64,000 nucleotides of DNA, from positions 3,472,001-3,536,000 of the forward strand of contig NZ_CP084469.1 in NCBI RefSeq assembly GCF_020405205.1, read 5' to 3'. This DNA comes from Natrinema salinisoli. Its GTDB lineage: Archaea > Halobacteriota > Halobacteria > Halobacteriales > Natrialbaceae. A model generated the notes under the pieces. It made no database searches. It saw only the letters and a program-made list of their open reading frames with translations, and was not told the DNA's origin. The position numbers and the translations under genes were made by a program. Position 1 is the first letter of the stretch, and each line of letters starts with the position of its first letter. Positions 25,172 through 57,261 of the stretch are shown one piece after another.

Positions 25172-25209
25172 CGCGCCACGCTTCACTCGCGGTTTGGTGT
25201 CGACAGAAA

Positions 25210-25361
25210 CGTCCTGACGGAGTCTCACGCGAACCGGGCGGGACCGGAGGTCCCGCTGGAAACCGGCGGCTTCGCCGCCGGTGACGCAGTGAGCGTGAGG
25301 CACGTCAGGACCGAACGACGAAGCGAGTGCTGAGCAACGTGAAGCACTCGTAAGGAGTGAG
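25210..25361. repeat. Multi-hairpin element abutting tRNA-Arg
   Basis: An outer inverted repeat GTCCTGACG (25211-25219) / CGTCAGGAC (25303-25311) and an inner CTCACGC/GCGTGAG pair enclose two perfect hairpins: GCGGGACC-N3-GGTCCCGC at 25238-25256 and ACCGGCGGC-TTC-GCCGCCGGT at 25262-25282. A further hairpin, CGAGTGCT ... AGCACTCG, follows near 25324-25350. The first 13 bases (25210-25222) are an exact direct repeat of the 3' end of the adjoining tRNA-Arg gene (25362-25374). The whole looks like a non-coding, probably mobile or integration-derived, structured element. Confidence 0.6.
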
Positions 25362-55180: not shown

Positions 55181-55816
55181 TTACCGACGAATCGAATGAG
55201 GTCCCGCTGCGATGGCTTTCGGTGGGCTCACGTCGGAATCCGTCGTCGCGGCGAGTCGATCGAGCCCGCTCGAGTAGACGCTCGTGATGGTAGTCTGGTT
55301 CGACTCGAGGTCGATTTCGACCTCGTCGCCGACCTCGATGCCGGTCTCGTTCGCGTACCCGCGTGGGACTTCGAGAACCCACTTCCCGCGGCCGGGGTAC
55401 TGGAGGGTTTCGCCGTCCTCGCCCGGACGAGGTGCGCGGGCGTGGTGGATCGACGTGATCTCGCCGTCCGCGCCGATGTAGATGATATCGATGTCGAAGT
55501 CCATCTCTCGCATCACGAAGGTCAGGTCCTGTTCCTCGTCGTAGACGAATAACATCCCGTCGCCGGGCTCGAGGGAATCGTGGTCGCTCAGTCCCGTGTA
55601 GCGTTCGGCGGGATCGTCCGCGATCTCGACGTCGACGACGGCCTTCGGCTCGTCGGTTTCGTTGGCAGACCCGTCGGACCCACCATCGGAGATGCGGACT
55701 TCTCCGCTGTCGGGGCCCCACGGTGCAGAGACGAATCCGGCCTGAACGAGGACGACGCCGACGATGGAGAGAGCGGCAATCACGAGAAGCCCTTTCCATA
55801 CGTACTCGAGTGCCAT
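55181..55816 (-). CDS. DUF192 domain protein, membrane-anchored
   Basis: 211 residues from MALEYVWKG. One N-terminal membrane helix (GLLVIAALSIVGVVLVQAGF) and an external DUF192 domain: VDVEIADDPAERYTGLSDHDSL, GDGMLFVYDEEQDLTFVMREMDFDIDIIYIG and GRGKWVLEVPRGYANETGIEVGDEV. DUF192 (COG1430) proteins are small beta-barrels of unknown function. The 3' end leaves 33 bases before the exporter start, suggesting co-transcription. Confidence 0.9.
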   Translation of the reverse strand: MALEYVWKGLLVIAALSIVGVVLVQAGFVSAPWGPDSGEVRISDGGSDGSANETDEPKAVVDVEIADDPAERYTGLSDHDSLEPGDGMLFVYDEEQDLTFVMREMDFDIDIIYIGADGEITSIHHARAPRPGEDGETLQYPGRGKWVLEVPRGYANETGIEVGDEVEIDLESNQTTITSVYSSGLDRLAATTDSDVSPPKAIAAGPHSIRR

Positions 55817-55878
55817 GGACGATTTCTCCACCGCCAGAGAGTAAAGGTTATTCGGACGGACCGTCTCGGTCCGGATAC

Positions 55879-55952
55879 GGGCTCGTGGTCTAGCTGGTCA
55901 TGACGCGGCCTTTACAAGGCCGAGGTCGGTGGTTCGAACCCGCCCGAGCCCA
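55879..55952 (+). tRNA. tRNA-Val (anticodon TAC)
   Basis: Acceptor GGGCTCG pairs with CGAGCCC, anticodon loop TTTACAA in stem CGGCC/GGCCG, T-loop TTCGAAC, discriminator A. The last 22 bases are repeated exactly at 56056-56077. Confidence 0.96.
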
Positions 55953-56291
55953 TTTCTCTTGCGAACGACAGTGAGCCAGAGAAATGGATGCGAGAGCGGT
56001 TCGAACCCTGCAAGTCGCAGCGCTCGAGCGAATACGAGAGCGACCGTCTTGCTTCGGTTCGAACCCGCCCGAGCCCACTGTTGCTGTCGCGAACAACTGC
56101 GAGTACAGACCCGCTACGATGACAAGTCGACTTCACTCGAGTCGCCGGGCACTGTCGACCGGACGCGTACTCTCACGTGACGCGATCGGGTGGGGTCGAG
56201 AGAAAAGCCGTGATCGGTACACGACCGCAGTCGAGATCTCGAGTCGGATAATCAGTTACTATCCCGCTACGCCGATCCGAATCGGGAGTAG
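55953..56291. repeat. Region after tRNA-Val with copies of the tRNA 3' end
   Basis: A 22-base exact copy of the tRNA-Val 3' end (GGTTCGAACC through the discriminator A) lies at 56056-56077, and a shorter copy, GGTTCGAACCC, is at 55999-56009. The spacer is 103 bases with no gene. This arrangement resembles an attachment site left by an integrated element that is now excised or decayed. No integrase is seen. Confidence 0.6.
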
Positions 56292-56738
56292 TCACTGCTT
56301 GAGTCGGGCGACGTTCTCCCGAATCTGGCCGAGGAGCCCGTCTCCCGAGTCGGTCTGCAAGGCCGCGTGCAGCGTCGAGTTTTCGGGCTCGTCTTCGACG
56401 ACGACTCGCAGGTACGGCTCGAGTTGCTCGAAGCTGTCCGCGAGGACGACGGTGTGGTTGTCTTCGTCGTGATCGACGACACCCGCATCGTCCAGTTTCG
56501 GGACGTGACACTGAACCGACGAGACGTAGACGCTCTTGTACTCGTTTTTTGCGACCTCGTCGGGCGGGACGTCGTGCTCCCACCCCGCGACGGTTTCGGC
56601 CAACGTCGAGAGTTCGATCGGGTCCTCCCGTCCGCGTAACGCGTAGAGGAGGTACCGCCGGCGTCGGTTCGCCAGCAACTCGAGGATCGTGTCGGCGTCG
56701 AGTTCTTGCACCTCCTGACTCGAGGTAAGAGCTTCCAT
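56292..56738 (-). CDS. Winged-helix DUF7344-like regulator
   Basis: 148 residues. DADTILELLANRRRRYLLYALRGREDPIELSTLAETVAGWE is the N-terminal helix-turn-helix of the haloarchaeal DUF7344/ArsR-like domain, with SVQCHVPKLDDAGVVDHDEDNHTVVLAD the recognition helix and wing. Likely a DNA-binding regulator; the signal is unknown. The remaining C-terminal 40 residues may dimerise. Confidence 0.88.
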   Translation of the reverse strand: MEALTSSQEVQELDADTILELLANRRRRYLLYALRGREDPIELSTLAETVAGWEHDVPPDEVAKNEYKSVYVSSVQCHVPKLDDAGVVDHDEDNHTVVLADSFEQLEPYLRVVVEDEPENSTLHAALQTDSGDGLLGQIRENVARLKQ

Positions 56739-56957
56739 AACACGATATTACCCCCCAGGGCGCAAAAGGGTGCCTTGAATATCTATAATTCCAACAGACA
56801 GCGGTAATCTCACATGGATTTGCGTGTATTGGCTTCGTTATTGGTTATTCTTGATGTACTCGAACTGTCGAATCGTGGTGCGGGGTCGTGTAAGCGGGGC
56901 GGAACGACGATCCCGATTCGAAATCCTTTTTTATACCATGGACGGAGGAAGAAGTGA

Positions 56958-57031
56958 GCCGCCTTAGCTCAGACTGGGAGAGCACTCGACTGAAGATCGA
57001 GCTGTCCCCGGTTCAAATCCGGGAGGCGGCA
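56958..57031 (+). tRNA. tRNA-Phe (anticodon GAA)
   Basis: Acceptor GCCGCCT pairs with AGGCGGC, anticodon loop CTGAAGA, T-arm CCCGG-TTCAAAT-CCGGG, discriminator A. A TATA-like TTTTTTATACC lies about 30 bases upstream (56928-56938). An inverted 13-base copy of its T-arm is at 57078-57090. Confidence 0.96.
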
Positions 57032-57261
57032 TACTTTTGCGGTGAGCAACACTGCAAGTCGCACGTATGGAATTCGACCGGATTTGAACCAGACAGGTCC
57101 CTGCCAGCGAGGGATCAGAGACCACTCGAGCAGTCAGTGCGTCGCCAATGACCGGGAAGCGAAGCCACCCGGACCACCTCGCTGCGAATCACATCTGAAC
57201 AGCTATCGTGAGTTCCGTTGTAATCGAACGGTATATTGGTCCGGTTACACTACTGGTATCC

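Follow-up and report, generated by a model that had tools for sequence, protein, structure and literature searches.

The window, i.e. the whole stretch of 64,000 nucleotides analysed, carries a tRNA-Val(TAC) gene followed by a tRNA-Phe gene. The last 22 bases of tRNA-Val (55931-55952), running from the T-loop to the discriminator base, recur exactly at 56056-56077, as the original prediction had noted. A scan of the 4.7-Mb genome allowing up to 3 mismatches found only these two exact copies and one 3-mismatch site elsewhere, and the reversed control pattern gave no match in the same scan. A chance repeat is therefore excluded, and the repeat is tied to the tRNA 3′ end as predicted.

A third, partial copy had been placed between the two at 55999-56009. 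It exists (GGTTCGAACCC), with its coordinates shifted by one base to 55998-56008, but it is not a repeat of the direct type. Its core, GGTTCGAACC, is its own reverse complement, so that direct and inverted copies look alike in tRNA-Val. Behind tRNAs with a non-palindromic T-loop, the same place holds an inverted and not a direct copy of the T-half; for hosts with the T-loop TTCAAAT it usually reads ATTTGAA.

The order after the discriminator base is hairpin A, a linker, the inverted T-half, module B and the direct copy (Table 1). Pairing between the inverted and the direct T-half makes module B one long hairpin (hairpin B). The 125 nt between 55953 and 56077 folded as RNA at -53.9 kcal/mol (z -4.82) and as DNA with z -3.65, in both cases better than all 200 shuffles. 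We consider it rather likely that the 22-bp repeat is the 3′ border of an intact 125-bp tRNA-tail cassette, belonging to a family spread through Halobacteria.

Table 1. Features at the tRNA-Val(TAC) and tRNA-Phe genes, in window positions
Feature	Position	Strand	Basis
tRNA-Val(TAC), host of the cassette	55879..55952	+	ARAGORN; Rfam RF00005, 63.6 bits
Hairpin A, stem TTTCTCT/AGAGAAA	55953..55984	+	RNA and DNA folds; A-T/G-C covariation of the loop motif across many units
Inverted T-half (GAGCGGTTCGAA), 5′ arm of hairpin B	55994..56005	+	Inverted nature from other tRNAs
Exchangeable module B (CCCTGCAAGTCGCAGCG...CGACCGTCTTGCTTCGG)	56006..56057	+	Nearest of 122 units: tRNA-Leu(TAG) of another Natrinema (L036)
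Direct repeat (22 bp) of the end of tRNA-Val, forming the 3′ arm of hairpin B and the acceptor strand	56056..56077	+	
Probable remnant of a second cassette, with the beginning of a further hairpin A (CTGTTGCTGTCGCGAACAACTGCGAG)	56078..56103	+	Resembles hairpin A of intact cassettes, e.g. L033
Half-decayed cassette behind tRNA-Phe	57032..57100	+	Hairpin A and an inverted T-half with one mismatch (57077-57088)

No direct tail copy was found within 400 nt behind tRNA-Phe. An Rfam search of window positions 55700-57200 (E ≤ 1) returned the two tRNAs and one below-threshold plastid family on tRNA-Phe, and no match to the unit. Elsewhere in the window, tRNA-Arg(GCG) on the minus strand (~25200-25360) has a decayed tail copy (6 mismatches in 20) about 130 nt downstream together with an inverted fragment, which are possibly a relic cassette.

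Tail copies and related units behind other tRNA genes

A DNA search of the same genome with this stretch of the window gave a 77% match behind tRNA-Arg(TCT), where the tails are those of tRNA-Arg. Own-tail copies were then defined as the last 20 nt of a tRNA recurring within 400 nt downstream with at most 4 mismatches. In the same genome 46 Rfam tRNA-match loci, read with ARAGORN, yielded 46 tRNA calls after merging of identical ones, a few of them doubtful; 14 of the 46 had an own-tail copy, versus 19 of 2032 for the tails of other tRNAs (a first pass gave 15 copies, one of them a tandem tRNA-Asp). The close relative G019 had 16 of 46 against a control of 22 of 2034. Two genomes of another family, G032 and G230, had 10 of 29 and 14 of 30 against controls of 4 of 774 and 15 of 832, using 30 tRNA loci out of 46 and 44 Rfam matches and counting twice the single cassette shared by one tandem tRNA-Asp pair in each genome. 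Thirty to 47% of the checked tRNA genes thus had an own-tail copy in each of the four genomes. The Rfam list missed at least tRNA-Pro(CGG), which also has an exact tail copy. Upstream of the tRNAs of the original genome, the sole copy with up to 5 mismatches was the tandem tRNA-Asp.

Units of one architecture were found behind 22 tRNA types (21 with a stricter filter). The first cassette begins immediately 3′ of the discriminator base, and cassettes can be tandem. The direct copy matches its host firmly, T-loop base 4 being that of the host in 144 of 163 copies (G-G 83, A-A 61). The host match of the inverted arm is weaker, because the arms match the host T-stem loosely (2.74 mismatches in 7 positions to the own T-stem versus 3.92 to others; 120 of 170 units). 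The 170 units came mostly from loci picked for matching, and 44 have an inverted arm with 4-6 mismatches; the 128 of 190 obtained in the unit survey is therefore not a frequency.

Within Natrinema, a tail copy lies no more than 400 nt from tRNA-Val in 26 of 29 genomes. Of the other three, two show a decayed cassette immediately after the tRNA; in the third (G028), tRNA-Val is separated from a half cassette by about 0.9 kb of other DNA. By eye, this DNA (locus L049) holds a lipoprotein-like frame on the opposite strand, ahead of the half cassette and a tail copy. Among named relatives, the copy was present with up to 5 mismatches in 32 of the 35 loci that had tRNA-Val on the expected strand, out of 45 fetched; one of these (L139) is doubtful. 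The comparison of relatives that the original prediction had called for thus found the repeat common to most of them and no element in the first 330-400 nt behind tRNA-Val, with spacing and content that vary.

Beyond the genus, a pattern search for one type of module B, B2, gave matches in 140 of the 391 genomes scanned from the class, representing 52 of 86 genera. The reversed pattern had no match in the 391 genomes, and none of 101 phylum members outside the order had a B2 match. Thirty B2 loci were fetched, all of them from three other families: 24 have a tRNA on the same strand no more than 354 nt upstream, one lies 897 nt from a tRNA, and in five no tRNA was detected in the stretch fetched. 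An ungapped tail copy with at most 4 mismatches was present in 13 of the 25 loci with a tRNA, and several others have a tail copy with a small indel, e.g. TTCACAATCC for TTCAAATCC. The tRNA-Phe loci L267, L142, L150 and others have a longer conserved segment (TCCCGATTTTACGCGATT...GAGCTGTCCCCGTTC...), which looks like another type of unit; its end, too, is the tRNA tail.

Site polymorphism, module exchange and stem covariation

Closely related genomes differ in whether a given tRNA is occupied. At tRNA-Glu(CTC) the original genome is empty, with the flank directly after the tRNA; G019 has a 90-bp unit and a 20/20 tail copy, and then the same flank. Gain is likelier here than repeated loss, because tRNA-Glu units are present in only 3 of 28 distinct Natrinema loci. 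The B modules of these three units are nearly identical and hairpin A of G019 differs; their tail copies all have the host's own base at the variable site, and two are exact. At tRNA-Pro(TGG), 4 of 19 Natrinema loci have a unit, and among eight loci chosen for a common flank downstream, only G019 and G012 are occupied, the other six being empty. Some empty sites could in part be losses. At L107, a stretch of about 220 bp downstream of tRNA-Pro(TGG) is repeated several times per genome; in the original genome it also lies, by coordinates, close behind tRNA-Met, tRNA-Pro(CGG) and other tRNA genes and, judged by eye, could code for a small zinc-finger-like protein.

Parts of the units also stand in different combinations at different loci. 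The tRNA-Pro(TGG) units of G027 and G019 have hairpin A and the arm in common and differ in B, the switch lying at the T-loop. At tRNA-Leu(TAA) the distal unit is common and the tRNA-proximal unit differs, which fits addition next to the tRNA. At tRNA-Gly(GCC) and tRNA-Ser(GGA) it is the proximal B that is common, with differences in hairpin A and in the distal part, so that addition next to the tRNA does not hold as a general rule. Among the 122 of 170 units that passed the filters, a set in which tRNA-Val and tRNA-Phe are oversampled, the nearest neighbour of B was at a different tRNA in 42, at the same tRNA in 76 and tied in 4, and that of hairpin A was at a different tRNA in 19. These data give good support to a family of repeats whose sites are precisely polymorphic and whose modules are exchanged.

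The stems covary, in counts that, like those above, take no account of phylogenetic kinship. The loop pair of hairpin A was A-T in 59 and G-C in 38 segments, versus A-C in 9 and G-T in 2 (108 of 162 segments with the motif). Among 110 distinct B2 cores, selected with a pattern in which part of the stem is fixed, one inner-stem pair was C-G in 59 and G-C in 46, a G-G mismatch was kept in 106 and a T-G pair (sense strand) in 73; the B2 triloop has 91% pyrimidines on the sense strand. Stem variants showed no consistent strand bias: the ratio of G-T to A-C was 23:9 in the B2 inner stem, 26:22 in hairpin A, 33:47 in the arms and 5:6 in the first 47 cores. As these ratios are inconsistent between stems, the sequences make action of the cassette as RNA possible at most.

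Origin of the cassettes and comparison with known systems

The original prediction took the repeat for an empty-site scar, the residue of past or serial integration. On this scar model, the two copies would be the attL and attR left when at least one integrative element was excised or deleted, and whatever lies between them would be a leftover. Its premise that tRNA 3′ ends are integrase targets was confirmed in Natrinema. In two Natrinema genomes, at L048 and L056, a tail copy and no detectable tRNA precedes a cassette with tRNA-Pro(CGG)-like tails (assigned to this tRNA by sequence only), and no more than about 0.3 kb separates this tail copy, directly before the cassette, from a tyrosine-integrase frame. 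The L048 frame matched PF00589 (E 3.5e-8); that of L056 matched PF02899 above the cut-off and PF00589 below it, at 1.8e-4. The two frames have opposite orientations. Apparently these are two integrated elements at the same tRNA. Because such frames lie near the tail copy before the cassette, real elements seem to use the same tRNA ends and to separate the tRNA from its cassettes; the cassettes themselves are not those elements. The 0.9 kb in G028 would also suit the scar reading.

The rest of that reading was not supported. Leftovers of different elements should be unrelated, whereas a structured and modular unit fills the space between the copies, with units alike behind 22 tRNA types, B modules that recur between tRNAs and one B type in 52 of 86 genera. 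Relatives show empty sites at other tRNAs, and nearly all Natrinema genomes keep the copy at tRNA-Val. No integrase element bounded by the 22-mer was seen in the first 330-400 nt behind tRNA-Val in the 29 Natrinema genomes (the 0.9 kb of G028 by eye). A repeat common to relatives, none of which carries an element, is largely the pattern found. Searches for a viral or plasmid carrier, which covered the window's unit and two B patterns, gave no blastn match of the unit to plasmids or phages, no stretch with the exact B2 pattern in viral contigs and three stretches with the second B pattern, none with a tRNA in the fetched stretch; we judged these three chance matches. Serial scarring by large elements is rejected, since modules are shared between tRNAs, and a scar of any kind seems improbable. 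The tRNA-Val repeat is probably a member of the two-hairpin cassettes and not the scar of a lost virus.

What moves the cassettes, and what they do, we infer from these patterns. The most likely mechanism, though it falls a little short of an even chance, is recombination or copying with no dedicated mobile gene. A cassette would arrive at the tRNA 3′ end by insertion or by copying and duplicate the local tail, so that the tRNA would stay functional; arrays would shrink by recombination between the ~20-bp tail copies. The T-loop sequence GGTTCRAA is common to nearly all tRNAs, and B modules could be exchanged through it by short-homology recombination or gene conversion. It is possible, though less likely than not, that gene-less hairpins insert at tRNA 3′ ends by recognising the common T-loop, rebuild arms that match the host on arrival and trade their inner module between tRNAs. 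If so, Halobacteria would carry a new, very small class of tRNA-dependent mobile cassettes, and tRNA 3′ ends would be miniature cassette arrays.

Tyrosine integrases acting in trans come second among the mechanisms and are a possible though less likely one: the cassette would be a minimal non-autonomous element, cut and inserted on T-arm sites by the integrases of resident viruses or plasmids, much as integron cassettes and satellites rely on a helper. Several features agree with it: insertion that is exact at the end of the tRNA and comes with a 20-bp duplication, tandem arrays, the use of the same kind of site by real integrases and, in the copies, inverted arms on either side of a T-loop. 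Against it, each tRNA's unit would need incoming DNA with a matching tail, circles of about 100 bp are very small, and the limited searches found neither a carrier nor a free form. The structure may be selfish or may be maintained for a function: the cassette might be a trailer RNA, transcribed with the tRNA, its hairpins serving 3′ processing, stability or a small RNA. Strong folding, the compensatory changes and the G-G mismatch, T-G pair and triloop pyrimidines of B2 would suit such an RNA, for which RttR behind E. coli tyrV may be an analogue; absence from many orthologous tRNAs and the lack of sense-strand bias in hairpin A and the arms speak against it, and we hold this function to be possible but doubtful. 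The tail copies, as a duplication of about 20 bp beside a fixed leader, are similar in geometry to casposon and CRISPR insertion, and insertion by a Cas1 or casposase might be imagined at tRNA 3′ ends. No Cas1 match was found in the original genome, in G019 or in 18 further Natrinema (20 of 29; Cas1 is present in 9), so that this very improbable route is largely ruled out for Natrinema.

The nearest known kind that we can name is E. coli tyrV-rttR (RtT). In K-12, three exact copies of the last 19 nt lie behind the tRNA at 178-bp spacing, with RttR annotated there; the likeness, judged from the tyrV locus only, is that the repeats following the tRNA each contain its 3′ end. We know of no RtT modules that different tRNAs have in common or that occur at many tRNAs. 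An RtT family exists in Rfam, and the search of window positions 55700-57200 (E ≤ 1) showed no homology to RttR. Integron cassettes are likewise small and lie in arrays with folded hairpin recombination sites; unlike them, the tRNA-tail cassettes have no gene, no dedicated integrase was found for them, and their tail copy matches the host tRNA. MITEs are recognised by terminal inverted repeats related to a transposase element, whereas the inverted arm of the cassette resembles the host tRNA.

For archaeal tyrosine-integrase elements, tRNA genes serve as att sites, and a copy of the tail remains (PMC8371274). These elements carry an integrase gene, whereas the cassettes, which the consulted passages of that review do not describe, are gene-less and have copies mostly 80-190 bp apart. 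The MITEs, PATEs and SMRs of Haloquadratum are small palindromic or mobile repeats (PMC3119063), short, gene-less and found in a haloarchaeon like the cassettes, but not described, in the part of the source available to us, as tied to tRNA 3′ ends or as copying the tail. Partial tRNA genes, mainly those of Thermococcaceae, are the subject of PMC9897764. The literature searched, mostly outside subscription journals, yielded no description of tRNA-tail hairpin cassettes.

The tRNA-Val site thus probably holds an intact member of a widespread haloarchaeal family of tRNA-tail cassettes, with the architecture, spread and site polymorphism described above, and its origin and function would be as discussed. 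This suggests that tRNA 3′ ends, the docking sites of viruses and plasmids, also collect gene-less inserts with clean empty sites. A duplicated tRNA tail in a haloarchaeon is, on its own, not evidence of a lost virus.
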